Source of the DNA: a virus
DNA length: 32,121 bases
Reading direction: 5' to 3' (one strand)
Virus record (IMG/VR): IMGVR_UViG_3300009418_004704
Span: 1-32,121 of that record
The translations under genes and the position numbers were made by a program. Positions 9,325-27,268 of the stretch are shown one piece after another. Under the pieces are notes generated by a model that saw only the letters and a list, made by a program, of their open reading frames with translations, had not been told where the DNA came from and searched no databases. The number at the start of each line of letters is the position of its first letter. Position 1 is the first letter of the stretch.

Positions 9325-11181
9325 TTAAAATATTTCGCAAGCGCCGCCAGAGCAAGCCAGTTCTCCATTCAAATTTGTTTCATCTTCTAACTCAATAACT
9401 TTTGTAAGATCTACTTCCTGGAGGGTATCTAAAAGCACTTGAAATTTTTCGGGTGAACAATCTTCAAATGGGGGTTGTCTGTAGGCATGATCACTGTAAG
9501 GTAAAACAGATAAACCGTTATAATAATTACGATTTTCCCACATCCATTCACCAACGTCAATCCATTCGGCGTCTTTAATAGAGACAGTCGCAGAAACATT
9601 GTGAGTGTTTTGACCACGCTGGTGGCCGGGTTTCACCCACTCTTCTGTAACCTTTTTAACTCTTTTTAAAAGCTGTAAAGCGCTTTCTGATCGAGTAATC
9701 GCTCCTTCGGGAGCTTTTTGTGGAATAGTTATAACAGCAGTATCGTGTGGCCTAAAATATTCATCCTCAACCAATTCCGGATGATGAATCGCAAGATGAT
9801 TATAAATCATTTCATTTTTTCCAACTCTCATCCGACGTACATAATAATCACTATGCCAAGCATGCACACCGGAGGACGTTCCCAGAGCTAACGACGTCGT
9901 ACCAGCTAGTTTAACGCAGGTAGTTCGCGCTGCTGGTTTAACACCAATTTGTTTTGCTACTCGACGGTTTTCTTTTTTAACTACAAGAGAAGCAGCTTTC
10001 ATATCCAAGTCTAATACTTTACCGGATGCAATGCCAGTCATCGATACACCAATGAGCGAATCTTTTTCTGTGGTCCGGTTCCAAACATCTCGAAGGTAAT
10101 GAAAATCGGTATACCCAGTTTGAAGGGTGCCAATAAAAGAAGCCACTTTAGCTCTGTTTTCATATTCTTCCTGTGTTTCTACATCAGAAACATTAATTTC
10201 TGTTAAATTACAGAACTGGTAAGGTCTTAAAGCAATTTCACAGCAAGGATTAGTACCCCAATCTTTGTCATTGGAAAAATAAAACCCGGGTTCACCAGAA
10301 CCAGATTCCCTGACGCGCTCCCATATGGCCATGAAGAAATCATGAGTTATCAGATGTCGCATGAGGACAACTGAATTGTTGGCACGTCCTCGTTGGGGAT
10401 TTGTTTCCCACCAGCTGCCTGTCTTGGCGGCAAGCATCTCCTCATCTTCTGCGGAAAAAAGCGAAATAAGAGCAGCCCGGCGAATCCCCCCGGCAAGAAC
10501 AGCATCAGCAATATAACAAATAATGTCGTGTACTTCAATAGGCTCAAGCTTATCTCCACTATCCTTTTCGTCAAGGATACCCTGAATCTTAAGGAGGCAT
10601 TCTTTCAACGGCTGAGGACCGGGAGCTTTGCCTCCACTAGTAACTAGTCTGCTTCCCTTCGGACGGATATCAGAAAAATCAAATTTTATTTTTGAGCCGC
10701 CTTTAAAGTAAGATTGTATCAAAACTTTTATCGAGTCGGACCACCCTTCAATCGAATCTCCAATAAGAAACCGGCGAGATCTTTTCGAAGTTGGCCTCTG
10801 AATTTCGGGGAGCTTATCAACATGGTGCCTTTGAACAGAAAATCCAACACCAGTGCCACCGAGAAGGAGAAACATGCACTCAGAAAAAGAAGCGATATGA
10901 TCGACAGGCATGTAAGCACAGTTATATATCCGGTTAGGTGCCACTTCAATCGGCTTGCCGCCGAATTGCATGGAGCGCATGGATGGTAAAACTTTTCTTT
11001 CATAGACGTAATTATACGCCTCTTCTATTTCGTTCCCTAAAAAAGGATACTTCTTAATGTGCATTTTCTTGTTTCTAGTAACTAACTCATCCCAAGTTTC
11101 TCTCCTTTCTAATCTTGGAATGTACCTAGAATACTTCATATGTACTGTAATGTCTGATAAAATTCTATTCTGCAGCTCCAT
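9325..11181 (-). CDS. nrdJ: Class II (adenosylcobalamin-dependent) ribonucleotide reductase
   Basis: A monomeric class II enzyme, reducing ribonucleotides to deoxyribonucleotides with a 5'-deoxyadenosylcobalamin radical. The ATG at 11181 (618 residues) is chosen because AGGAGG lies eight bases upstream; a TTG two codons earlier is less likely. Active-site residues align with the Lactobacillus leichmannii reductase: N311, the radical cysteine C313 and E315 in NPCCEIALRPYQFC, the redox partner C324 eleven residues later, and C88 in NRIYNCAYMP. A C-terminal pair C610/C615 (CSGGAC) shuttles electrons from thioredoxin-type donors. The protein is shorter than the roughly 740-residue type enzyme, and no ATP-cone is evident. 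A single-subunit, oxygen-independent enzyme needs no radical-generating subunit gene, and none is seen. It needs host B12. The gene overlaps the helicase end by 17 bases. Confidence 0.92.
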   Translation of the reverse strand: MELQNRILSDITVHMKYSRYIPRLERRETWDELVTRNKKMHIKKYPFLGNEIEEAYNYVYERKVLPSMRSMQFGGKPIEVAPNRIYNCAYMPVDHIASFSECMFLLLGGTGVGFSVQRHHVDKLPEIQRPTSKRSRRFLIGDSIEGWSDSIKVLIQSYFKGGSKIKFDFSDIRPKGSRLVTSGGKAPGPQPLKECLLKIQGILDEKDSGDKLEPIEVHDIICYIADAVLAGGIRRAALISLFSAEDEEMLAAKTGSWWETNPQRGRANNSVVLMRHLITHDFFMAIWERVRESGSGEPGFYFSNDKDWGTNPCCEIALRPYQFCNLTEINVSDVETQEEYENRAKVASFIGTLQTGYTDFHYLRDVWNRTTEKDSLIGVSMTGIASGKVLDLDMKAASLVVKKENRRVAKQIGVKPAARTTCVKLAGTTSLALGTSSGVHAWHSDYYVRRMRVGKNEMIYNHLAIHHPELVEDEYFRPHDTAVITIPQKAPEGAITRSESALQLLKRVKKVTEEWVKPGHQRGQNTHNVSATVSIKDAEWIDVGEWMWENRNYYNGLSVLPYSDHAYRQPPFEDCSPEKFQVLLDTLQEVDLTKVIELEDETNLNGELACSGGACEIF

Positions 11182-12559
11182 TGTCAATTCCTCCTGGTCG
11201 TTGATTTTTTAAAATTCTGTATTGTTTATATTTTTCTCTCAAGGCATCAGCTAATTCGTTTGGGCGCATCGATGGCGAAACGACAGGAGTATCAACCTTG
11301 GCTAAAACTCTTATTTTTACGTTACTCGTATCCATAAAGATAGGAAACACTAAACCATCCGGTCCATTCCTATTTTTGGCAATGAACATCCGGCCAGTAT
11401 TTGCATTTTTGTCCTTGATCGTTCTAGAAATAGAACAGATAAAGTCAGATACAAAACACTTGTTAAAGGCTTCTGAAATAGATTCCATAGTTACAACTTC
11501 TGCATTCAATCCTGTACGATTTGTCTGTGAGGCGGTCCAAACTGGGCACTTAAACTCTTGCGCGATGGCGCGTAGGTTTTCATAAATAGACTCCAGCTCA
11601 TTGCGTTTCTCTTTGAAAGCTGTGACCGGCCTAAGCAGATCAGCGTAATCTACTAGAATCATATCGATTTTGTGATTTCTTTTTTTTAATTTTTCTAGAT
11701 GTGTTCTTATTGTATTTGTCGTTGCAGTTTTAGTAGGATATTCTTTAATAATCAAAGTACCTTCTAGATCATTAATAACTTCCAATACTTCTTCTTTCTG
11801 ATGGAAGAGAGTATTTAAAGAAACACCACTAATGCAACTGTCATATCTCTGGCCGGTCGCGGCCTCAGAAAGCTCCAGGGTATAGTGTACAATGCTCTTG
11901 CCATCTTTAATCGCATGAGAACCTAGATGCGCCAGGACCATTGACTTGCCGGCGCCCGTGGGAGCAATTACAACTCCAAGCTCGCCAGAACCCAAGCCCT
12001 TCTTCATCAAAGAATCAATTTTTTCCCAACCGGTAGAAACTGGATTTCTAGTTTTGATCTCATATCGTAACTCAAAATCTTTCAGAAAGTCATGACCGAA
12101 GTTGTTGTCAGTACCAAGCTTAAGAGCATCGTCAATCACCTTGCGCACTTCGCCATATGAGGAATTCTGGATCAAGTCCACTGACTGCATTAATGCTTCT
12201 TTGAGCTTTTGTTTCTTGCAGAAATCCAGGCTGGTATCTTTTATATATTGGCTGTCTTCGACACCCTTAATACAAGTTCTGGCAAAGTAATCTCTTACCT
12301 GCTTTTGTATAGATTCGTTAAGGCTTGTCAACTCCGTTCTTAAAATTGAAGCTAAGATCTTCTTAGTCGGATGTACACCATACCTCTTACGATATTCATA
12401 GATTTTTGATGTAAAAACACGAAGATAGTTCAGTTCGAAAAATCTAGTGTCAATTACTTCTTCAATTTGATCAGCAAACGGCCGATCTTCAAGGATCATT
12501 TGTGCTAGTGATTCTTGAAACTGCTTCCCATATTTCGAGAAGCTAAGCTCTTTAGTCAT
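11165..12559 (-). CDS. DnaB-like replicative DNA helicase
   Basis: A 464-residue RecA-fold hexameric helicase, equivalent to T4 gp41 or bacterial DnaB. The N-terminal part (to about 150) is helical with SLAQMILEDRPFADQIEEV, as in DnaB-type N-domains. The Walker A motif is APTGAGKSMVLAH (about residues 199-210) after STGWEKIDSLMKKGLGSGEL. A Walker B-like strand is MILVDYADLLRP, followed by the sensor region CPVWTASQTNR and an arginine-rich end. It would unwind the fork ahead of the DnaE polymerase. TGGAGAA precedes the ATG at 12559. It overlaps the reductase gene downstream and follows the exonuclease gene after 33 bases. No primase domain is fused to it and no primase was seen in the window. 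Confidence 0.92.
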   Translation of the reverse strand: MTKELSFSKYGKQFQESLAQMILEDRPFADQIEEVIDTRFFELNYLRVFTSKIYEYRKRYGVHPTKKILASILRTELTSLNESIQKQVRDYFARTCIKGVEDSQYIKDTSLDFCKKQKLKEALMQSVDLIQNSSYGEVRKVIDDALKLGTDNNFGHDFLKDFELRYEIKTRNPVSTGWEKIDSLMKKGLGSGELGVVIAPTGAGKSMVLAHLGSHAIKDGKSIVHYTLELSEAATGQRYDSCISGVSLNTLFHQKEEVLEVINDLEGTLIIKEYPTKTATTNTIRTHLEKLKKRNHKIDMILVDYADLLRPVTAFKEKRNELESIYENLRAIAQEFKCPVWTASQTNRTGLNAEVVTMESISEAFNKCFVSDFICSISRTIKDKNANTGRMFIAKNRNGPDGLVFPIFMDTSNVKIRVLAKVDTPVVSPSMRPNELADALREKYKQYRILKNQRPGGIDNGAAE

Positions 12560-12592: not shown

Positions 12593-13549
12593 CTAACGAT
12601 TGTCTATGGAGATTCTGTTAAACTGCTGGAAGAGTTCGATAAAATTAATTTCTCCAAAACCATCTTTTATCATCATCTTAATTAACTCTGTCTTGTTGAA
12701 AGAAAGATCCGGGTTTTTGATTGTGTCGCGGATAGTCTTTTTTGCTTCGATACTAAGGATAGGAGTATAAAGCTGCATCATATGATAATTTCTTCTCAAG
12801 ATATCTTCGTTATCTAATACTTTTTGATATGCTTTCACATTTGTTTCCTGGTCCATCTTTTTACAATGTTCTATTACATCTGTAAAACTAGCTGCTTTTT
12901 CTTCTTTTAAAAAAGGAAATCGTTTGGCCACAGTTTTCAAACCCAAGCCGCCGATGCCCTCGATATTATCTGATTTATCACCCTCCATAGCCCTTGCCAT
13001 GGCAAAGTTAGATGGATGCACATTAAATTTTTCTAAAATAATATTTTTGTTTAAAGCCTCTTTTTGTATCGGTCGGTATTGTACTGTTTTGGCGTCTAAA
13101 AGCTGAAAGAAATCTTTGTCACTAGAGATAATAAGTTTTTCAGCATTCTCCAGTTCCTTTATTTGTGTAAGATAGGCGACAATATCATCAGCCTCTGTGC
13201 TTTTAAACATGAATTGAATAATAGGCGTCTGGTTATAGTACTCGATCAACCTAGTCTGTTGCCAAATCTTATTTTCTACCTCTTGATCCTCAGACATATT
13301 TCTTATGCCTCTATTTAATCGAATTGGCTTGCGGCCGGCTTTGTAATCCTTCTTTAATAGCTTGCGCTTTTTAGATCCACCTTCTCCGTCCCAACAAATG
13401 ATAATTAAATCAGGTTTGGATTCTCGGCTTATCTTTTGGATGCTCTGAAAACATCCCTTCAACCCCCCAATTGGGGCGCCGTTAGTTGATAAGCTGGGAT
13501 TAACAATGTAGTTTCTAAAAAACAAATTCAGTTGATCAATGATCAGCAC
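12593..13549 (-). CDS. 5'-3' exonuclease / flap endonuclease (RNase H-like, T4 rnh type)
   Basis: A PIN/FEN-family nuclease of 318 residues that would remove RNA primers and 5' flaps from lagging strands. Metal-binding acidic motifs are visible in order: LIIDQLNLFFRN at the start, ICWDGEGGSKKRK, STEADDIVAY, ISSDKDFFQLL, and GDKSDNIEGIGGLGLKTVAK, the helix-three-turn-helix DNA-binding element. It is about the size of T4 RNase H and corresponds to the N-terminal domain that bacterial PolA carries; here the polymerase part is a separate gene at 18406-19584. The start is a GTG at 13549, giving an N-terminus with the first metal aspartate at residue 5. A tiny upstream frame overlaps this GTG. Confidence 0.92.
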   Translation of the reverse strand: MLIIDQLNLFFRNYIVNPSLSTNGAPIGGLKGCFQSIQKISRESKPDLIIICWDGEGGSKKRKLLKKDYKAGRKPIRLNRGIRNMSEDQEVENKIWQQTRLIEYYNQTPIIQFMFKSTEADDIVAYLTQIKELENAEKLIISSDKDFFQLLDAKTVQYRPIQKEALNKNIILEKFNVHPSNFAMARAMEGDKSDNIEGIGGLGLKTVAKRFPFLKEEKAASFTDVIEHCKKMDQETNVKAYQKVLDNEDILRRNYHMMQLYTPILSIEAKKTIRDTIKNPDLSFNKTELIKMMIKDGFGEINFIELFQQFNRISIDNR

Positions 13550-14497: not shown

Positions 14498-15244
14498 TTA
14501 TCGTCGGTCGCGACGGCTATTTTGTCTTTTACTTTTATGCTTTCGCCGATTGTGCTTTTTCCTGGCGCCAGGCTTATCTTTTCTCTTATATAAATTAGGC
14601 GGAATATTTAACTTGGTTTTTGAATTATTACGCCGATAATTTTTTTGTACCTTTGACCTCGGGTTCTTCTTGTGAGCCTTCTTCTTGTGATGATATTTGC
14701 GGCTTTTACTTTTATTAGGCTTGTTTTTTTTCGGCTTGATAATCACGTTCGCCGGGCCTGATCTATGGTGTCGTGACTTCGCCTTGTGCTTGCGATGATG
14801 GTTATATTTTCCCTTTGGCTTAATAACCACCTTCGAAGGACCGGGGCGATGTACAATAACCTTCCGTTTCTTGTGCTTCTTATGATGTCCATAATGGGCG
14901 CCCGGGCGGTGAGCGTGGTGGTTGTGCCTGTTCCAAGTCTTGTACTTCTTCTTCCAGGTATACCAATGATTTCCATGGTAGTGACTGTGAGCGTTAGTGC
15001 ACCAAGGATGTGCTCGGTGATGGCTTGTGTATGTAGGCCAATACAAACGAAGCGCGCCGACGGTAATCGACGGTGTGTGAGATCTGTGGTAGTGGTTACT
15101 AACACATTGAGGTGCATCATATACATATACAGGTGACACCTCCTGACTCGTCAAATACGGATCGCTTGTTTGTATATGGCCGTCAGTGCAACCTGTTACC
15201 ACACCGGCCACGACAAAACAAATTTGAATAATTAATTCATGCAT
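14498..15244 (-). CDS. His/Lys/Arg-rich putative lipoprotein
   Basis: After an N-terminal hydrophobic segment ending in the lipobox VVTGC (Cys19), nearly the whole 248-residue protein is basic. It has about 30 histidines, concentrated in clusters such as NHYHRSHTPS, NAHSHYHGNHWYTW and NRHNHHAHRPGAHYGHH, followed by a Lys/Arg-rich tail. Two imperfect repeats occur: HRPGPSKVVIKPKGK and HRSGPANVIIKPKKN. The ATG at 15244 overlaps the recombinase stop (ATGCATGA) and has AAGGAGG upstream. A TTG four codons further out from AGG AGG AAG AAA would add Arg-Arg-Lys-Lys, giving a better signal peptide, so the start is not fully settled. If exported it would sit on the periplasmic membrane face. Metal binding, or binding to DNA or anionic surface polymers, is possible. 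I know no matching family. Confidence 0.7.
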   Translation of the reverse strand: MHELIIQICFVVAGVVTGCTDGHIQTSDPYLTSQEVSPVYVYDAPQCVSNHYHRSHTPSITVGALRLYWPTYTSHHRAHPWCTNAHSHYHGNHWYTWKKKYKTWNRHNHHAHRPGAHYGHHKKHKKRKVIVHRPGPSKVVIKPKGKYNHHRKHKAKSRHHRSGPANVIIKPKKNKPNKSKSRKYHHKKKAHKKNPRSKVQKNYRRNNSKTKLNIPPNLYKRKDKPGARKKHNRRKHKSKRQNSRRDRR

Positions 15245-16358
15245 TTTCTTCCTCCTTATCAATGTTATAGAAGCTGGCTGCATCACCAGATCGATTAATG
15301 AACTTCATAATAATCTCTTCATCCATTATTTGAAGTACTCTATTTTTAAATTTCTCGCTTTGTAATTTTTCTTTCCACTTAGCGGCTTGGAACTTTTCGC
15401 TGGTGCCATCTTTGTAAACAAGGTCGTACCATGCGCCTGATTGTCTTAAATTATCAGAAACTTTTATGGCTTCTAGCCAACTTTCTTCATCTTGGATGCC
15501 TACGTTTTCGCCCCAAAGAATTTTAAAAGTACATTGGCGTCCTTCCGTACCAAAACGGCTCTTCTTTAATGTTGTCTTGACTTCAGAGCCAACTCTATAT
15601 CCATTATCGTCCACGATGAACGAGGCCTTGGCCTTGCGTTTTGTCAGCCAGATACGCAATGAGTATGCGTAGTGCATCGCTTTTCCACCGGGCGTGACAT
15701 ATGGTGTTGTCATAGCTTCGGATGGGCTCCGGGTAATATTTGTTTTAAGCTGGTTTAAGACCAAAAAAGTTGATTTGGAGGCGGCGATAGGAACTGTCAA
15801 TTTGGACATTCCTTTAGCCAGAATTCTAGGCTTAACTGCCATCGAAGATTGAGGGTTAAAATCGCCCTCTACATCACTCACAGAAGGAGTCAGAGCTAGT
15901 GAGTCCCAGATAAACAACATTCTATTGTCATTTGAGCCTAGTAATTCTTCAATAGTCTCCAAGACATACTCAACGCTAGGAGGTTGTGTGTACAACAAGT
16001 TGTCGATGTCACAGCCGGCGTTTGTTAGGAAGCTTGGATCAATGGCTGACTCAGAATCAAAGTATACAACATCCATGCCCATTTTTTGAGCATTAGCTGC
16101 TATCTGTGCTGCCATATACGACTTCCCTGAGCCCTCAAGGCCAGCGATTTCTACAATTTTGCCAACTGGTATACCCGCCAATTGCCCACGGCAAATAATG
16201 CTATCAAGCCAGCGTGAACCAGTAGAAATCCAATCTTTAACTTGTGTTGGGTTTTCTTTTGTTAGATCAAAAGCTACTTCAATGCCGGCCTTTTTGTTAA
16301 TGAGATTTCTCATCTCACCAATACTTAATCTTCCCAGTTTCTTTGATTTTCTCGCCAT
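15237..16358 (-). CDS. uvsX: UvsX/RecA-type recombinase
   Basis: A 373-residue RecA-fold ATPase that pairs homologous strands and drives recombination-dependent replication in T4-like phages. The sequence shows STGSRWLDSIICRG, Walker A GLEGSGKS (residues 73-80), the YFDSESAIDPSFL segment typical of RecA/UvsX, the Walker B-like strand MLFIWDSLAL, the loop around FLVLNQLKTNI and TPYVTPGGKAMHYAYSLRI. The C-terminal extension (from about 300) is charged. A good AGAGGAAG site precedes the ATG. The start lies 34 bases inside the upstream membrane protein gene. The gp32-like protein just upstream is its natural partner. No UvsY-like loader was identified. Confidence 0.93.
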   Translation of the reverse strand: MARKSKKLGRLSIGEMRNLINKKAGIEVAFDLTKENPTQVKDWISTGSRWLDSIICRGQLAGIPVGKIVEIAGLEGSGKSYMAAQIAANAQKMGMDVVYFDSESAIDPSFLTNAGCDIDNLLYTQPPSVEYVLETIEELLGSNDNRMLFIWDSLALTPSVSDVEGDFNPQSSMAVKPRILAKGMSKLTVPIAASKSTFLVLNQLKTNITRSPSEAMTTPYVTPGGKAMHYAYSLRIWLTKRKAKASFIVDDNGYRVGSEVKTTLKKSRFGTEGRQCTFKILWGENVGIQDEESWLEAIKVSDNLRQSGAWYDLVYKDGTSEKFQAAKWKEKLQSEKFKNRVLQIMDEEIIMKFINRSGDAASFYNIDKEEENA

Positions 16359-16663
16359 TCTTCCTCTTTTAAATCTAGTTCGCTTGTTAGTGACTCGTAA
16401 ACAGGGATGTCCATCGTTTCCTCTGGATCCCTCATATATCTATAATCAACGAGAGTATGGTTTATAAAGTGCCTTTGTCTCATATCAAAATGTGTTATCT
16501 TGTCTGTTAGCGGAATCAATAATTGTTGTGTTTCTTTGAGAGATTGATTAATGCTTTTAACAAGTTTTACTGAATAAAGTCTTTTGTTTTCTATATAAGC
16601 ACCAAGTGACATACCCGATATAAACAAACCAATTGACATGGCTATTATTATGAAAATGTCCAT
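16325..16663 (-). CDS. Small membrane protein of unknown function (112 aa)
   Basis: Residues 2-22 (DIFIIIAMSIGLFISGMSLG) form one membrane segment at the N-terminus. The rest is a soluble helical domain with an acidic, Trp-containing end (KEEEWRENQRNWED). The likely topology is a short N-terminus and a cytoplasmic C-terminal tail, but it could be reversed. AAGG precedes the ATG. It sits between the SSB and UvsX genes and overlaps the latter by 34 bases. A membrane role beside recombination genes could mean tethering of replication or host exclusion; nothing in the sequence decides. Confidence 0.7.
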   Translation of the reverse strand: MDIFIIIAMSIGLFISGMSLGAYIENKRLYSVKLVKSINQSLKETQQLLIPLTDKITHFDMRQRHFINHTLVDYRYMRDPEETMDIPVYESLTSELDLKEEEWRENQRNWED

Positions 16664-16736: not shown

Positions 16737-17477
16737 TTATGATAGAAGTTCAGCAAAAGCCTTGTCAACGGCAGTACCGCCGGTGGACTTGCTATATTTT
16801 GTGGTTTCAACAGAAACATCTTCTGCGTCATCCTCACTAAGCAAAAACTCATCCAACATGACTTGGACCTGCTCCGGTGTCTTTCGCTCGAAGACAGAAT
16901 CAAAATCAGGAATTTGATCTAAAAATTTACCAATCTCCTCCTCAGTCCCAGCCATAGCCGACGGCTTACGGCGAGGCGTAATTGTAGTTTGTGGGAACTG
17001 TGCTCCAGGTGGCTTACCATAATTGATGGTCAAATCAGTGCCCTCATCAGTATCGGTGATATCACCGTATTCAGGGTTAAGAACAAGGTTCAGTAATTCT
17101 TTGTATGCAGTCTTACCGAAGCCCCATAGTCGTACACCCTTATCTTCCTCGCCGCGCACTAGAACCGGTGCGAAGAAGCGTTGACGAGCAGACAAGTCTT
17201 TGGCCATCTTAATAGATTCATCAGATCCTTCCTTGTATAGTTGACGAACAAAGTCATTTAGCGGATCATCTTCACCAAAATTTCTCTTCGGGCTCAAAAA
17301 ACCTGGGTTTCTGCCCAAGTTGTAATGAAACCAATACTCCTTAAACGGATCTCCATCGGGAGTTGGTACGATTCGAATCGTTGTCTCTCCGTCGTCTGGT
17401 CGCCAGAAAACACTCTGACCGCCGCGATTTTCTAGGGCGTCGCGCTTTTCCTTCATTTTTGCTAAATCAATACCCAT
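16737..17477 (-). CDS. Single-stranded DNA-binding protein, T4 gp32-like
   Basis: A 246-residue gp32-type SSB. The N-terminal part MGIDLAKMKEKRDALENRGG is basic, as for the cooperative LAST-type domain. The core contains FWRPDDGETTIRIVP, EYWFHYNLGRNPGFLSPKR, ARQRFFAPVLVRGEEDKGVR, LWGFGKTAYKELLNLVLNPE and GAQFPQTTITPRRKPS, a series typical of gp32 homologues in T4-like phages from marine hosts. The C-terminal third is acidic (LLSEDDAEDVSVE), the usual protein-interaction tail. The zinc-binding subdomain of T4 gp32 is not visible. The ATG is preceded by AAAAGGAG, a candidate -10 box and a hairpin leader, consistent with high and perhaps self-controlled expression. It supports DnaE, helicase and UvsX. 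Confidence 0.93.
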   Translation of the reverse strand: MGIDLAKMKEKRDALENRGGQSVFWRPDDGETTIRIVPTPDGDPFKEYWFHYNLGRNPGFLSPKRNFGEDDPLNDFVRQLYKEGSDESIKMAKDLSARQRFFAPVLVRGEEDKGVRLWGFGKTAYKELLNLVLNPEYGDITDTDEGTDLTINYGKPPGAQFPQTTITPRRKPSAMAGTEEEIGKFLDQIPDFDSVFERKTPEQVQVMLDEFLLSEDDAEDVSVETTKYSKSTGGTAVDKAFAELLS

Positions 17478-17575: not shown

Positions 17576-18409
17576 TTATTCTATTTTTTGTTCCTGAATA
17601 AATGACGCATAATGCGTCGAATAAATGTAGTTGTGTTCGTAGTTTGTTGAATAAATTTTAAAATTTGCTGCCACTCTTTCAGCAGCCTGTGCTCTTACAA
17701 AAGAACGTATGCTGTGTAGCGTTTCTTTGTCTTCTTCCAGCGTCTTCTCACTAATACCATAAAAATAATTTTTTGATCTTGGATACTGCATATCGTAAAA
17801 TAATTTTTCTTTGTTAGTTTCATAGTTAACAACGCCCATAGTGCCAATTCTTGCCGTAATAGGCTTGGGAGAGGACACCGTCAACAATGGTTCTGTTTTG
17901 TTAAATACATTTAACATATGGTATGTACTTGAAATTATATTATTTATATCCTCCCAATAGCTTTTGATTGACACAGTTTCAACTGCGGCCTCAACCAAAC
18001 TATTAGAAATAATATACATATTTTCAAACAACGCCGACCTAGCGTAATGCTGCATTATGCCAAAAGTAGCTCTATCTTTTAGAGCCTGCTCATCTGATAT
18101 TTGTACAATATCAGGTTTTACATAGATAATTGTAATTGGATTCTCTTTTAATTGTTCCAATATCCTCAAGCTGCAACCACTGACATTTCCTGTCCCGCTC
18201 ACGATGAAAGTTGTTTCTCCTTTGCACTTTGCTAATTTCAGCTTTTTATAGTTTTTTTCATAATTCTCATGAGAAATTTGATGTTTTAGAGGTAAAAAGG
18301 TGGGGTACCCTTTATCTTCTACATCAATACAAAAAACTTGATATTGTCCATAATCCTGGAAGTTTTTAGCTATTTGGCATCCGGCGCTTCCCAAGCCAAC
18401 AATATTCAT
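17576..18409 (-). CDS. Divergent tubulin/FtsZ-like GTPase
   Basis: The 277-residue protein follows the tubulin/FtsZ pattern in order. The start MNIVGLGSAGCQIAKNF matches the T1 nucleotide loop (FtsZ GVGGGGGNAV), followed by VFCIDVEDK (FtsZ FIAINTD). ETTFIVSGTGNVSG and LRILEQLK match the T4 signature GGGTGTG and its helix, then ITIIYVKPD (FtsZ VAVVTKPF). FENMYIISNSLVE matches the T6 segment (TLIVIPNDKLL). DINNIISSTYHMLNVFN and TARIGTMGVVNY correspond to the T7 region and the following strand, but the catalytic T7 acidic residue is not clearly kept. A second domain ends in YIYSTHYASFIQEQ. It overlaps the family A polymerase stop by four bases (ATGA). Phage tubulins such as PhuZ move or centre phage DNA in jumbo phages; that role here is inference. 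Confidence 0.62.
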   Translation of the reverse strand: MNIVGLGSAGCQIAKNFQDYGQYQVFCIDVEDKGYPTFLPLKHQISHENYEKNYKKLKLAKCKGETTFIVSGTGNVSGCSLRILEQLKENPITIIYVKPDIVQISDEQALKDRATFGIMQHYARSALFENMYIISNSLVEAAVETVSIKSYWEDINNIISSTYHMLNVFNKTEPLLTVSSPKPITARIGTMGVVNYETNKEKLFYDMQYPRSKNYFYGISEKTLEEDKETLHSIRSFVRAQAAERVAANFKIYSTNYEHNYIYSTHYASFIQEQKIE

Positions 18410-19591: not shown

Positions 19592-20908
19592 TCATTTAAT
19601 ATTTTTGGTGGCGGTGAGAGGATAATTAACGGTGCTGGGATTCACAGCTCTTTCCAAAGCTATTTTCTTTTTTTGCTGGTATTCATCTTCAGTCATGCCG
19701 CCCCAGAAGGAACCTCTCTTTACAAAGTTAGGAACAAAGAAGCCCTTTGTCAAGTCATTAATATATTTAAGAGCGGCGTCTAGACCAAAGGCCCTCTTGT
19801 TGTCCAGCATCTCATTAACAAAAAAATTAAAATTTTGTGTTGTGTGATGAAATTTAGTTTCTGCAAACCTTAATTTGAGAATAATTTTTAACCAGTATTC
19901 GTGATGTTCCTCGTTGGTCATATCCTGTGGAGGTTGTCTGTTTCTCCTGATGTTTTTAACAGGGCGTTGACATCTAACAGAGGAACTCTTGTGCTGAATT
20001 AATTCTTCGTATGTGCCGTATTGTTGATAAAAAGAAGTGTAAAGAGTTTCAAACACATTTTTTATGTTTAGAGCTTCTTCCATATGTGGCCGTCGATAAT
20101 AATAATCAAACACATTTCCATAATCAATTCCAAAGTGATTCATGGACATTTGTCCGCCTGCCAGTTTAGAATTTGAAGAAGTGTTCCCAGTCCAGCCAGA
20201 CGCCAAATTAAAAACTAATCGCCATGGTGCATTCTTATCTAGCATAAATCCATATTTTTTTGTTTCTTTTGCGAAGAAAACAAAGTTTGGATCTTTTGTA
20301 TATTTAAGTATCGCGGTATTAGTAGGTAATCCGTGTTGCTCCGATGCTATCTCGACCATCAGCCCACTAATAAACGGACTACAGTGAGTCGAAAGAACGA
20401 AACCAGTTTTTGTAATTGGAAAATAATGAGCATTTCTTAAAGCATATCGTACAAATTCCTTAATAAAAGATTTATGATCTTTTATTCTTTCATGTCGTCG
20501 ATCAATCTCAAGGTAATTGTTGACAAAATCAGTATATAATTTATTTAAATATTGATTGTAGCTGAATTCTAAATCATGGTAGTCCCATGCCTTGTGTGCC
20601 CTTAAATTAATAGAATATGCGCCACTTCTATTAATTAATCCGCGGTCGGCCGCTTTTTTAACACTCCTTCTAAGATTAAAAAAAGCTTCGCTAACAAAGT
20701 CAGCTGCAAAATGTGTCTTCTTAGAACCACCATAAATTTGTTTTAAATTTGAATCGTCCAAATAAATTGCGTCGCCCTTAGGATCTATACGCCCATAAAA
20801 CAAATGTTTACGTTCCAAATCAAAAACACCAACCCCAGCTAAATTCGGATAATAATTACTTAAATTATTTTTTGAATTAAATATCGACTCGGTGAGATTC
20901 TCAGACAT
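19592..20908 (-). CDS. Probable virion structural protein, function unknown (438 aa)
   Basis: I do not recognise the fold. The protein is rich in Tyr, Phe, Asn and His, with NYYPNLAGVGVFDLERKH near the start and WRLFNLAS-type aromatic segments. It has no membrane segment, coiled coil or catalytic motif. Its ATG overlaps the stop of the 968-residue tail gene (TAATG), so it belongs to the tail operon. It is the last gene of that operon before the replication genes, whose start follows seven bases after its stop. A baseplate or tail-completion role is inferred from this position only. Confidence 0.6.
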   Translation of the reverse strand: MSENLTESIFNSKNNLSNYYPNLAGVGVFDLERKHLFYGRIDPKGDAIYLDDSNLKQIYGGSKKTHFAADFVSEAFFNLRRSVKKAADRGLINRSGAYSINLRAHKAWDYHDLEFSYNQYLNKLYTDFVNNYLEIDRRHERIKDHKSFIKEFVRYALRNAHYFPITKTGFVLSTHCSPFISGLMVEIASEQHGLPTNTAILKYTKDPNFVFFAKETKKYGFMLDKNAPWRLVFNLASGWTGNTSSNSKLAGGQMSMNHFGIDYGNVFDYYYRRPHMEEALNIKNVFETLYTSFYQQYGTYEELIQHKSSSVRCQRPVKNIRRNRQPPQDMTNEEHHEYWLKIILKLRFAETKFHHTTQNFNFFVNEMLDNKRAFGLDAALKYINDLTKGFFVPNFVKRGSFWGGMTEDEYQQKKKIALERAVNPSTVNYPLTATKNIK

Positions 20909-23814
20909 TATTTAGGTTTTCCCTGTTGTGTCTGTACTCCTGTAACTTTTGTTGTGTAAGAACCTGCGGAAATTGTGCTCGTCACGTTCATTATCAAATG
21001 GTACCCACCAAGATTCATTTGATATGCTAAAGATCTCGCATCTTCAACACTGCCTAGGCCGGCCATGCTTGGGTTTACATAATAATACATGCCCGGTGTA
21101 AAAAGTGAAGTTCCAATTAAATCTAAATTCGTATTATACGGAAATTTTAACTGAGCTAGCGCGCTGACTCCCTGTTCTTGGGACTGTTTAAATCTCAGCT
21201 CAGCCATTCCAGAAAGCGCGACGCGCTTGAAGTCCATTTTCTTTAAAAGACCCGTATCCGATCCAATATTAAAATGATAAATTCCATCTTTTAAATCAAC
21301 AACAGGATTGCCGGCTCTAGATCTAAGGTTCTTTACAGTTGTCACGTACATTAATAAATAATCATATGAAGTTTTGAGCATCGATTCAGATGATTGGCCG
21401 CCTTTTAACTTATCCAGATATGTCTGTTTAAAAATTGGGCTGTCAACATCAATAGCCCGATGAAGAGGCAACAACTCTGCCACCTTGCCAACCATTCTGC
21501 CACAAATATTTATTGGTTGTTCTTTTGTTTGCATACCGGGTAAAGTTAAGGCGACCATACTCGATCTAGTTTTTGGGGCCTTAACACTTTTGGGCATTCC
21601 AACTCCCATAGCAGGTATAACTAGGTTGTTTAGGCAGGTTGTCAAAAAGTCTCCCAACGGCAAGGACGGTCTTTTTTTACTAATAACCTTTTTTAAAAAC
21701 CAAGCTCTGAAATAATTAAATGATATCGGAAATTGTGCCAAGTTTATAGTTTTTATTTTGCCAGTTTGAGCATCGACATATTCCATTGGGCCCAACAAAA
21801 CCCTAGTACCGCTGAGGCCGTAGCTTAAGCCTGCCTCTTTGTTCAGCTCTCCCTTCTTTTTTTTGTTGTTACCATAATAAGAAGTTTCAGGGAACGGAGG
21901 GTAAGCTCTTTCACCAGAGCCCTGATTTCCCTGCTCTGAATGTAGCTCGCCCATTGTATCTGCATTAACCAAATCCAAAGCTCTAAACCCGGCGTTTTTA
22001 CAAGCTAGCTCTATTAAATCACCAAGGTAAACAAAATAAAATTTATAATTTTCTCCATCATAGTTAAGAGTTGATGTACGTGAAGGATCTTTCTTCTTGT
22101 CACCCGTTTTGCTATCAGTAGAGGCAGTCTGGTTCTCCACCACGGTTGTTACATCTTGGGCTACCTCACTCTGTAGTGCAGCGTCCTTTGCGACCAGCTT
22201 GTTACATCGATCAATTTTAATTTGTGGTTCGCCCTTAGGCGTCGCCGTTGTTCCGCCTTGGATAGCTTGTTGTGCTGCATCTTCGTAACTAACGCCTTGT
22301 GAAGTTAAATATTCTATTTCAGCTTGGCCAGGGTTGGATTTAGGTTCAGGTTCTGGAACGCCGCCCAAATACTTTTCAACCTCTCTTTTAGGTACGTTAA
22401 TACAAAATAATCTAGTTTCTGGAATGCCGTCGTCTCTCTGATCATTACCAGTAATAAGTTGATCAACAAAGGTTTTGTATATATCTTTCTTAAAAGAGCC
22501 AACTCTTTTTCGTATGATAGCCAGCATTGCATTAGCATTGTCTAAATTTTTAAACCATATAAATATGTCCTCGCCATCGCCAACAATTTTTGTTACACCC
22601 TTTTTTACAGTAATCGCTGGGCCGCCGGCCTCTTCATATACAGAGGAAAAAACAGGATCGCCTACCAGAACTTGTCTAAGTTTCTTCCTTGATGTGCATT
22701 TATCATCTTTGCAGGCCGTCTCGTTTAAACCTTTGTGGAATTCGTGTATCATAGCCTGCACTTTAAAAACATGTGCAGGGTTGTTTTTAGGGTCAACTGT
22801 TTTGGAAATTTCTTTCTTACCGCCCTTGCCCACCCTCATTGTATCCTGAAAAATGTTAACTTGGTTGGTGCCAACTACCGTCTCCAAGCGACCTCGGTAA
22901 TTAGCAGTCATGGAAACCTGGCCTTGTTCTCCTATATTCAACTTGTAGTCTACCAAAGAAAGGGAAACCAAAGTATTCAATTTTTCAATATCGTGGATCA
23001 TTTGTACTTCTTTTGGAGATAAGTTCAGGCCCTCTAAAGCCTGTTTCGAGGGAGAAGTGTAGCCCATAACAACTTTTATTTCATAATGTTTAGGATTGTA
23101 TGTTTCCGAATCTTTTACAAATTTTGCGGGAGGCCACAATATCAAATCAACATATCTAAGACCACCCTTTTCAGGGTTAGGCTCACCTGGTGGTTGCGCA
23201 TTAAGATCTTTCAACGACTTAAACGTTACTACTAAAGTACACGCAATATTTTGTTCGAGTATACCATGCGACTTGCCATCCTGGGTAATTGTAAACGATT
23301 TCAAGCCGACATTTCGATAGGTAGGTTTTGAGCTTTCATATTTTAAATAATCTTGTACGGTCGCCGCTGTTTCTTGACCAAAGTTGTCAGAAAATTTGAA
23401 CTCTTTATAACAAGGATATGGCAAAGATTCTATTTTTCCTTCGTCAGGGGTGCCGTCTTCAGTAAAAACTGCTTCTTCATAATTAACCTTATAAATTCTT
23501 ATTTTTGGCTGCATAAGAGATAGTACAGAAGTTTTTATACCATAAAATACACCAACATTATCAATACCTCTTAACTTATTAACAATTTGTGTACCGTCAC
23601 CGTTAACCTGTCTGTACGTTTGATAGTTGAAAAGATCTTTTCTAGAATGATAATAATTTGCGGCTTTGTCAATGTTCTGACTTAAAATATATTGTTCAAT
23701 ACTTTCTCTGTCTCTGTTGTCGTTCGTTAAATGTTTCTTATCGCGAACTTTGGCAGAGTCTTTCTTAGTATTTAAATCAGTTGTACCGTCGGCGCTGGTA
23801 ATATCTTTAGCCAT
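20908..23814 (-). CDS. Large probable baseplate/tail structural protein (968 aa)
   Basis: A 968-residue protein with alternating strand-like stretches, no signal peptide and no enzyme motif. The N-terminal 50 residues are polar and Lys/Asp-rich. The middle contains VGVFYGIKTSVLSLMQPKIR, YVDLILWPPAKF and NYRGRLETVVGTN; residues about 500-590 are low-complexity, rich in Gln, Thr, Lys and Pro. The end has TGLLKKMDFKRVALSGMAEL and YHLIMNVTSTISAGSY, a beta-rich layout that could form hub- or ring-like domains. Its place between the gp53-like wedge gene and the 438-residue gene suggests a baseplate hub or wedge component. I cannot match it to a specific T4 gene product. Confidence 0.6.
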   Translation of the reverse strand: MAKDITSADGTTDLNTKKDSAKVRDKKHLTNDNRDRESIEQYILSQNIDKAANYYHSRKDLFNYQTYRQVNGDGTQIVNKLRGIDNVGVFYGIKTSVLSLMQPKIRIYKVNYEEAVFTEDGTPDEGKIESLPYPCYKEFKFSDNFGQETAATVQDYLKYESSKPTYRNVGLKSFTITQDGKSHGILEQNIACTLVVTFKSLKDLNAQPPGEPNPEKGGLRYVDLILWPPAKFVKDSETYNPKHYEIKVVMGYTSPSKQALEGLNLSPKEVQMIHDIEKLNTLVSLSLVDYKLNIGEQGQVSMTANYRGRLETVVGTNQVNIFQDTMRVGKGGKKEISKTVDPKNNPAHVFKVQAMIHEFHKGLNETACKDDKCTSRKKLRQVLVGDPVFSSVYEEAGGPAITVKKGVTKIVGDGEDIFIWFKNLDNANAMLAIIRKRVGSFKKDIYKTFVDQLITGNDQRDDGIPETRLFCINVPKREVEKYLGGVPEPEPKSNPGQAEIEYLTSQGVSYEDAAQQAIQGGTTATPKGEPQIKIDRCNKLVAKDAALQSEVAQDVTTVVENQTASTDSKTGDKKKDPSRTSTLNYDGENYKFYFVYLGDLIELACKNAGFRALDLVNADTMGELHSEQGNQGSGERAYPPFPETSYYGNNKKKKGELNKEAGLSYGLSGTRVLLGPMEYVDAQTGKIKTINLAQFPISFNYFRAWFLKKVISKKRPSLPLGDFLTTCLNNLVIPAMGVGMPKSVKAPKTRSSMVALTLPGMQTKEQPINICGRMVGKVAELLPLHRAIDVDSPIFKQTYLDKLKGGQSSESMLKTSYDYLLMYVTTVKNLRSRAGNPVVDLKDGIYHFNIGSDTGLLKKMDFKRVALSGMAELRFKQSQEQGVSALAQLKFPYNTNLDLIGTSLFTPGMYYYVNPSMAGLGSVEDARSLAYQMNLGGYHLIMNVTSTISAGSYTTKVTGVQTQQGKPK

Positions 23815-25141: not shown

Positions 25142-27268
25142 TCATGCAGGGACCTGTTCTGGTGGTAGTCCTCTTGCTGTTCTGGTCATGTTCTCTTTAA
25201 CATTGGCAACGGCTTGAGCAGATGTTCTTTGTGTTATAGTATCTATTGTTTTCCCGTCTAATTGTACATTTGTTGTTATATCGGCCTGTAAAAGAGACCC
25301 TTCTCTTATCGCGTTTGTAAGCTGCAATATTTGGTCTGCTAAGCCTGATTCCCCGGTTGCCCCCTGTGATCTCTCAGCTTCGAGCCTGGCTCTTTCTGCT
25401 AGGCCCATGGGACGAGGTCCGGTAGTCGTCGGGCCCCCTCCGGGGTGAAGGCCCATGGCATCAGTGGCCTCCGGTATCAGAGAAGCACCACCGATGACTG
25501 CGCCGCCGGTGATGACTTTCCCAACAGCTTCCGTAAGATTCCCCTTTGCTAGAGACTCCGCAATTCCAGTTCCACCAGTAATTATCAGATCAAAAGCAGC
25601 AACTGTTCCCAAAGCAGCAGCTTCCGAATCCTTTGCTACTCCTAAAACTTGTTTAAACGTGCCCAGCACAATCTTGGCGCCTTTTTCTCCAAATTCTAGT
25701 GCTCTTTCATTAAATTTATACATGCCACCCTGCATGGCAGTACTACTTTTAGTCAATTGCTCCTGCATGGTAAGAGTTTGATTGACTTGTGCCTGAATGT
25801 CTTCGTTGCTTTTTGCTTCGGTGCTTACTTGCTTAGCTTTGATTTCGTAATCAGCTGCAGTACCACCGGATAACAGTCTGGCCGCTTCAGCTGTATCGTT
25901 TAGGCCGAGGGCGCTTGTTATTACTTGTTTCATCCTACGATCTGCAGTCTCAAAGCTGACTCCTGATTCCTCCATGGCTTGTTGAATCATCAAAATTTTC
26001 TCATCGTGGTCGGCGTTCACTAGATCTGTTGTCGACAAAAAAGTGTCGCCCATAACAGCATTAAATTGCTGTGCAACCTTTGCGGCGCCTTCGAAAGTAT
26101 CAAGACCAGATGCATATTCAGTCAGTCTGTTAACGCCTAGACCAGTGTTGATAGACTGCGCCTCCAACCTTGAAAAAACATCAATAGCTCCTTCACCATA
26201 TTGGGACATCGTTCCTATGTTATCGTTAAAATCTTTAAATGCTCGTGCAGCACTAATTTCCAAAGTATCTGCAACAGAAAGTAGAGATTTTACAGATTTA
26301 GCTGAGTCCATTGGCGTCTGACGAATAACCTTGTTCATGTTATCAAAAGATTTTGTTGAGGACTCCAACGGCACACCCACTTTTTTCATGTTAGCAAATA
26401 GGTTGGCAGAGACGACTGCGATGCCTTGGTTCGCTTCCATGAAAGAAGAGCGCATTATTTGTATATTATCATGCATCGCCTGGAAGGTAGGACTAGTATC
26501 AGCTATTCTAAGGCCTGTGTTGTCTATGGTGCCCCCCATTTTGTTCATTTGGTCAATGGCTTCTTGCGGCATCATTCGTCGGGCCCAGTCAGTATCGGCC
26601 GACATAACCTGGAGTTTTTCAAATCCGGCACCCACAATACCAGTTTCCTTGCCCACCTTCTTGATCTCGGTTTGCATGTGGCCATAATCATCTTTCAAAT
26701 CTTGAACAACACTTTGGGCTTTGCCTGGGAATAAGAAGGCCATGGCCGCCATCTCTTTACTAAATCCCTGAACCGTCGCACCCATGCCTTCCGCCATGCC
26801 GCGGCCGGATTCAAGGGCGACCTGGCTGAGATTCAATTGCGCATTCGTTTGTTCCCGGATATGATCCATATTCATTTTGCTATCTTTTATAGCCTGATTG
26901 ACATTTTCGTTCCTGATTTCCTTGCGCTTAGCTTGTGTTTTCTGCAAAGCAGCATCAATTGATGCCTGGTTTGCCTGGTATGCTGCTGCTTGAGCTTTGG
27001 CTGTTTGTATGCTCTGTTCAAGGCGCGCTTGGGCAGCGGTGTCGACAACTGCTTTTTCTCTCTCTACAGCCAGCTCTCTGCTTTTTGTTGCTATAATGTT
27101 TTCTAATTGAGCAGCCTGCTGCTTGTACTGTTCTAGCTGGGCGCCCTGCTGAACAAGCAGGTTTTCCTGTTTCGCACTTAAATTTTCGAGATCAGCGCCA
27201 AGCTTCTCAAGAGAAGCTGCGAGTGCCGCGGCCTCGGCCGCAAGTGCTTGTGGGTCTTTTGTTGACAT
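25142..27268 (-). CDS. Tail tape measure protein
   Basis: A 708-residue protein with the expected design. Residues 1 to about 140 form a heptad-like coiled coil rich in Ala, Gln, Glu and Leu. A long helical middle region follows, including MNKMGGTIDNTG and the SVADTLEISAARAFKDFNDN stretch. A Gly/Ala/Ile-rich hydrophobic section around residues 560-610 (DLIITGGTGIAESLAKG, VITGGAVIGGASLI) could insert in the membrane during DNA delivery. A Pro/Gly-rich tail ends it. Tape measures fix tail length; at about 1.5 angstrom per residue a helical ruler of this size suggests a tail near 100 nm. It lies after the tube and the gp26-like genes, as in other myoviruses. Upstream is the shared leader motif with an AGGAG site. 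Confidence 0.8.
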   Translation of the reverse strand: MSTKDPQALAAEAAALAASLEKLGADLENLSAKQENLLVQQGAQLEQYKQQAAQLENIIATKSRELAVEREKAVVDTAAQARLEQSIQTAKAQAAAYQANQASIDAALQKTQAKRKEIRNENVNQAIKDSKMNMDHIREQTNAQLNLSQVALESGRGMAEGMGATVQGFSKEMAAMAFLFPGKAQSVVQDLKDDYGHMQTEIKKVGKETGIVGAGFEKLQVMSADTDWARRMMPQEAIDQMNKMGGTIDNTGLRIADTSPTFQAMHDNIQIMRSSFMEANQGIAVVSANLFANMKKVGVPLESSTKSFDNMNKVIRQTPMDSAKSVKSLLSVADTLEISAARAFKDFNDNIGTMSQYGEGAIDVFSRLEAQSINTGLGVNRLTEYASGLDTFEGAAKVAQQFNAVMGDTFLSTTDLVNADHDEKILMIQQAMEESGVSFETADRRMKQVITSALGLNDTAEAARLLSGGTAADYEIKAKQVSTEAKSNEDIQAQVNQTLTMQEQLTKSSTAMQGGMYKFNERALEFGEKGAKIVLGTFKQVLGVAKDSEAAALGTVAAFDLIITGGTGIAESLAKGNLTEAVGKVITGGAVIGGASLIPEATDAMGLHPGGGPTTTGPRPMGLAERARLEAERSQGATGESGLADQILQLTNAIREGSLLQADITTNVQLDGKTIDTITQRTSAQAVANVKENMTRTARGLPPEQVPA

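Follow-up and report, generated by a model that had tools for sequence, protein, structure and literature searches.

Gene organization of the locus

The window, by which we mean the whole stretch of DNA analysed, is a virus record of 32,121 bases. The gene under study, which we label FtsZL, is an open reading frame of 277 codons with an ATG start on the minus strand (17576–18409), a segment across which the plus strand has many stops and no open reading frame of 60 residues or more. In the order of transcription, a gp53-like baseplate gene and several unknown genes are followed by a DNA polymerase, FtsZL, a single-strand DNA-binding protein (SSB), a small protein with a hydrophobic start and the recombinase UvsX, with an exonuclease and a DnaB helicase further on (Table 1). 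The original prediction, which was made from this DNA alone, had remarked on a 4-base overlap between the polymerase stop and the start of FtsZL, and this is exact (18406–18409). Within the polymerase only the C-terminal polymerase part of PF00476 is matched, and no 3′–5′ exonuclease domain was seen in its 392 residues; the polymerases of Flavobacterium phage immuto and Microcystis phage Mel-JY01 are of similar size.

Table 1. Positions of FtsZL, its sequence landmarks and the neighbouring replication genes in the window
Feature	Position	Strand	Basis or remark
FtsZL, predicted tubulin/FtsZ-superfamily gene	17576..18409	-	277 aa; 284 full-length relatives analysed
T1 phosphate loop GLGSAGCQIA, residues 5–14	18368..18397	-	Conservation; profile alignment to PhuZ T1
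Reduced T4 loop SGTGNVSG, residues 71–78	18176..18199	-	Pairing with GGGTGSG by eye
T5 loop YVKPD, residues 96–100, corresponding to FtsZ VTKPF	18110..18124	-	Conservation
QHYARS, residues 120–125, family-specific motif, C-terminal end of the helix after T5	18035..18052	-
T6 loop IISNSLVE, residues 133–140, with putative guanine-contacting N136	17990..18013	-	hhalign
HMLNVF, residues 164–169, family-specific motif, bottom end of central helix H7	17903..17920	-
Residues 171–187, position of T7 and H8 in FtsZ: no helix, no conserved acid	17849..17899	-
Family-A DNA polymerase, polymerase part only, 392 aa	18406..19584	-	PF00476 E 1e-19, phrog_17
gp32-like SSB	16737..17477	-	PF08804, phrog_1192 E 4e-26
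Small protein with a hydrophobic helix at its N terminus; part of the family has it between SSB and UvsX	16325..16663	-
UvsX/RecA-type recombinase	15237..16358	-	phrog_97 E 2e-55, PF00154
5′–3′ exonuclease	12593..13549	-	32–37% identity to the annotated 5′–3′ exonuclease of immuto and the Mel-JY01 equivalent
DnaB-type replicative helicase	11165..12559	-	31–40% identity to annotated helicases of immuto and Mel-JY01

A family that marks one clade of T4-like phages

By sequence, FtsZL has no significant match in PHROGs, Pfam, NCBIfam or the sequences of the PDB, and a tblastn search against 50,697 phage records likewise returned nothing significant; a match in Rhodothermus phage RM378 was dropped, as it amounted to 8 bits over a single short stretch. 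Iterated pattern searches of IMG/VR raised the number of contigs encoding a relative from 2 to 12, then 407 and finally at least 588, with one match per record and no second FtsZ-like gene in those records, and none of the 40 pattern matches in GTDB species genomes proved to be a relative. We measured conservation in 172 non-redundant full-length relatives (24–89% pairwise identity) and used a second alignment of 53 sequences, among which PF00091 (Tubulin) is touched by two (best E 0.044) and TIGR00065 (ftsZ, NCBIfam) by four (best E 0.04), in each case below the curated cut-off. Comparison of profiles with hhalign gave P-values of 0.044 against FtsZ and 0.0039 against PhuZ, where PhuZ against FtsZ gives 6.5e-5, and the statistics for FtsZL are by themselves too weak to prove homology. 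In the open literature on tubulin and FtsZ in T4-like or marine phages we found no description of this family; among marine jumbo phages, tubulin has been reported only in the PhiKZ-like ones (PMC9123017).

The order polymerase–FtsZL–SSB–UvsX is found in all 120 contigs that hold the four genes. Because this sample had been fetched through FtsZL itself and was hence biased, we searched afresh by polymerase or SSB alone, and FtsZL lies between the two in 113 of the 113 contigs holding both; in the eight contigs from this search that are without FtsZL, the contig ends at or near that slot. Distances between FtsZL sequences follow those of the polymerase (Mantel r 0.74) and the SSB (r 0.72), when the best of 999 permutations stays below 0.08, and its evolutionary rate is about that of the polymerase. 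Of 143 contigs, 46 show the 4-base overlap of stop and start, and in many more the two genes overlap by some other short length or stand one base apart. FtsZL is thus a single-copy core gene of the replication module in one phage clade. The original prediction had placed the gene in a replication block, and this slot has held up as a conserved one, but the polymerase in it is a short family-A enzyme and not of the T4 gp43 type.

That the carriers are T4-like, as had also been proposed, is borne out by UvsX, the gp32-like SSB, the gp53-like gene and a gp23-type major capsid protein, which was matched at E about 1e-60 in 7 of 10 related records; the window, being a fragment, does not include it. 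Records carrying FtsZL, all of them possibly incomplete, reach 203,859 bases. By capsid, the nearest cultured relatives are immuto and Mel-JY01, with RM378 more remote; the first two share the order SSB, recombinase, exonuclease, helicase, and have a related polymerase upstream. We looked in their slot for a split or distant FtsZL, and found immuto gp002/gp003 and the Mel-JY01 equivalents to be unrelated to it. Since immuto and Mel-JY01 have unrelated small genes at this place, FtsZL marks one clade, a large one, of uncultured T4-like phages. The two cultured phages have in common a small protein downstream of the polymerase (ILVHRKKESNTxYTIN; L184:1346–1801 and L185:11675–12064), which is again unrelated to FtsZL.

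Predicted fold

An AlphaFold2 model of FtsZL built from the 53 sequences is confident (pLDDT 94.2, pTM 0.92). Its Foldseek matches in the PDB include Staphylococcus aureus FtsZ (E 2.8e-13) and Bacillus cereus TubZ (E 3.8e-12), and VIA-align, with matches that span residues 1–277, gave CetZ at Z 24.4 (2.9 Å over 253 residues) and both TubZ and FtsZ at Z 22.4. We built a second model from a distant family member and 29 distant sequences, leaving out the near kin of the window, so that the result on the fold is independent of these close relatives. This model (pLDDT 91.7) has an identical order of elements and matches CetZ at Z 25.5 (PDB ID: 3zid), TubZ at 23.5 (PDB ID: 2xka) and FtsZ at 23.1. 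Taken over both models, Z lies between 22 and 25.5 over 253–276 residues of tubulin-superfamily proteins, and a single chain combines a GTPase-type Rossmann domain, a long central helix H7 and a C-terminal activation-type domain. Among viral predicted structures (BFVD) the best match is A0A6J5RW92 (E 3e-13, TM 0.76 of the query). From these models we consider it nearly certain that FtsZL has the tubulin/FtsZ fold, which is what the original prediction had proposed.

The nucleotide side

The three landmarks that had been named at the outset (GLGSAGCQIA, SGTGNVSG and IISNSLVE for T1, T4 and T6) are present in the open reading frame and conserved in the relatives, and the VKPD that was likened to FtsZ VTKPF is part of the T5 loop YVKPD. 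Across the 172 sequences the T1 glycines G5, G7 and G10 are 97–100% conserved, a T2-like D29 is acidic in 92%, Y96 of T5 is kept in 97% with D100 acidic in 95%, and N156 is conserved in at least 95%; in the smaller alignment the T6 residue N136 is kept in 52 and the T4 residue G78 in 50 of the 53. Conserved to this degree, the T1, T4, T5 and T6 landmarks stand far above chance. The superfamily set is uneven, with T1 and T6 strongly conserved and T4 present only in reduced form. Where tubulins have the T4 signature GGGTG[TS]G, the family has GxGx[IV][ST]G, and T3 reads SHExYE and is not glycine-rich.

Run with no structural input, hhalign places N136 on N165 of Escherichia coli FtsZ and the pair W152/N156 on F183/N187, three guanine-contacting residues, and it also weakly pairs the T1 loop of FtsZL with that of PhuZ. 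Since loops T1, T5 and T6 are conserved, as is the aromatic-xxx-N pattern at residues 152 and 156, FtsZL likely binds a guanine nucleotide, as far as can be judged from its sequence.

The opposite face

In FtsZ, two catalytic aspartates of the T7 loop act on the GTP of the next subunit (PMC8936486), and the canonical protofilament contact is made by T7, the base of H8 and S9 (PMC3678025). FtsZL departs from this arrangement. In both models H7 (residues 151–170 in the first) runs into a helix-free stretch and then into the next strand, so that no H8 is found; where FtsZ has H9, the strands that come next are likewise joined without a helix. No acid is conserved where T7 would be, columns 157–190 being acidic in at most 68% of the 172 sequences. 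The original prediction had noted a reduced T4 and no obvious T7 acid in this one copy, and both hold family-wide in the 53- and 172-sequence sets. The C-terminal tail and H11 are absent as well, and the chain stops 9 residues past the last strand.

Two other motifs are almost invariant in the same 172 sequences, namely QxYxRS (Q120, R124 and S125 at 99–100%) and HMxNxF (H164 and M165 at 99%, N167 at 95%). From the topology of the fold, in which the helix after T5 covers residues 106–124 of the first model, each of them would sit at the lower end of its helix, on the side that T7 would occupy. Because the two motifs are 95–100% conserved where T7 and H8 are gone, the lower face looks rebuilt and not merely lost. 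With T7 and the base of H8 altered or missing, filaments may nevertheless not form.

Relation to known tubulins

The best full-length structural match is the archaeal CetZ (PDB IDs: 3zid, 4b45), with Z 24.4 and 25.5 across some 255 residues. CetZ, however, is a protein of cells, exceeds FtsZL by about 60 residues and shares 10–15% identity with it. Its T4 and T7 loops are canonical. TubZ, which serves in plasmid and phage segregation (PDB IDs: 4ei7, 2xka), resembles FtsZL both in fold (Z 22–23.5, 14–16% identity) and in being a tubulin of mobile elements; FtsZL, however, is some 100–130 residues shorter, lacks both H8 and a C-terminal tail, and belongs to a replication operon, where polymerase, SSB and UvsX are its neighbours. 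With bacterial FtsZ it shares T1, T5, T6 and the aromatic/N pair at the start of H7 (Foldseek E 3e-13), but identity is about 10%, the GGGTGTG of T4 and the glycine-rich T3 are missing, and neither the T7 motif NxDxxD nor H8 is present. The viral protein A0A6J5RW92, annotated as “FtsZ cell division GTPase” in an uncultured Caudovirales phage, is far longer than FtsZL (452 residues) and 14% identical. Because FtsZL has the fold of the superfamily but lacks the features looked for in FtsZ proper and in PhuZ, we place it in a new, reduced family of the tubulin/FtsZ superfamily that is neither of the two.

Possible function

We favour, with a probability of about one half, a reading in which FtsZL would form a guanine-nucleotide-dependent assembly that organizes replicating phage DNA, has weak or altered hydrolysis and is made in step with the polymerase. 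The upper face would bind the nucleotide, and the remodelled lower face, with QxYxRS and HMxNxF, would contact either the next subunit or a partner in the replisome. What results would be an assembly with slow hydrolysis or none, produced jointly with the polymerase, by which replicating DNA is gathered or positioned. Hydrolysis would be weak or altered because the T7 aspartates that act in trans are absent. Nucleotide binding, assembly, partner and purpose are all steps that we infer, and placement in a replication operon does not prove that FtsZL acts on DNA; a job in positioning replicating DNA, at which the original prediction had hinted, is one that it may have. More tentatively, we suggest that FtsZL could represent a tubulin family not described before whose role is viral DNA replication, in T4-like phages with no nucleus, and which assembles through a non-canonical lower interface (QxYxRS and HMxNxF in place of T7 and H8), either without GTP hydrolysis in trans or with an arginine/histidine-based substitute for the aspartate mechanism.

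Several other readings bear on the same evidence. The main rival, which we think less likely, is that FtsZL is a scaffold or switch of the replisome that does not polymerize, being a sensor of GTP or dGTP or an adaptor for polymerase or SSB with no filament. A protein of this kind would fit with the absence of H8, of H9 and of acids in T7, with the missing C-terminal tail and H11, with the strict polymerase/SSB neighbourhood and with a short polymerase that may need partners; yet Q120, R124, S125, H164, M165 and N167 are retained in 95–100% of relatives, as one would expect of a specific interface, and self-assembly might just as well be its role. That FtsZL instead poisons or caps host FtsZ, joining one filament end only and stopping division, we think improbable: its two faces are indeed conserved asymmetrically relative to FtsZ, but the strict polymerase–SSB slot and the co-inheritance are unlike variable early host-takeover genes, and the upper-face loops are FtsZ-like only in part, with T3 and T4 differing.

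A kinship with PhuZ in particular is not supported. FtsZL resembles the PhuZ of phiKZ and other jumbo phages in being a phage-encoded protein with a tubulin fold and in the weak alignment of T1; none of the 50 VIA-align matches listed is a PhuZ chain, though this does not exclude one. However, the PhuZ C-terminal domain (PF22334), which gives phiKZ PhuZ 128 bits, is absent in the 53 family members; H11 is missing, and so are GxGKxR of T3, replaced by SHExYE, and the aspartates of the T7 motif DxxD, of which G, G, R, D and D are invariant in nine PhuZ sequences. The carriers differ too, being T4-like, and the suggested link to a phage nucleus found no support: in 12 records of 148–204 kb, possibly incomplete, neither the PhiKZ-type chimallin (PF25677, a PhiKZ-specific model) nor the multi-subunit RNA polymerase (PF00562) was matched, with the phiKZ control positive for both. 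A PhuZ-type spindle that positions a nucleus-like compartment is therefore very improbable. We give hardly any credence to the idea that an NAD(P)-binding protein, such as a Rossmann-fold dehydrogenase, has been mistaken for FtsZ. FtsZL does begin with GxGxxG, owing to which 15 of the 53 relatives weakly match TrkA_N (best E 6.8e-6), but a plain dehydrogenase with no tubulin match is not what the structure search returned: the full-length matches listed for the two models all belong to the tubulin superfamily and take in the central helix and C-terminal domain, although a ranked list does not exclude what is absent from it.

The phage tubulins whose descriptions we found belong to jumbo phages that form a nucleus or to plasmid-like phages. 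FtsZL, strictly conserved as a single copy at its slot in hundreds of contigs from phages in which no nucleus machinery was detected, would, read as we prefer as an assembly on replicating DNA, extend the cytoskeletal organization of viral DNA to T4-like phages. Because it is set between a polymerase and a DNA-binding protein and has lost the GTP-cutting loop, this very small and hitherto unlabelled superfamily member suggests that a cytoskeletal protein in modified form serves these phages when they copy their DNA. Its natural loss of the T7 acids, H8, H9 and the tail also makes it a test case for what tubulin assembly requires, and makes the need for hydrolysis in phage tubulins directly testable.

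Other genes of the block

The small protein at 16325–16663 is found in 18 related contigs, and some open reading frame with a hydrophobic helix occupies the gap between SSB and UvsX in 38; it is possible that this protein is a membrane anchor for the replication block. The same gap can hold an FKBP-type peptidyl-prolyl isomerase-like frame (11 contigs, for instance L058:5128–5568) or one of 533 residues resembling a GHKL-type ATPase (5 contigs, for instance L042:11813–13414). Between polymerase and FtsZL, 26 contigs have a frame of about 100 residues that we named MazG-like by eye (VRDKIPEIL; for instance L123:2246–2557). After UvsX in the window lies a strongly His/Lys-rich frame with a lipoprotein-like start (14498–15286), to which related frames occur in a few contigs. 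Upstream, two long frames (20908–23814 and 25142–27268; 968 and 708 residues) match no family and are syntenic in many relatives; their products are probably tail or baseplate proteins.
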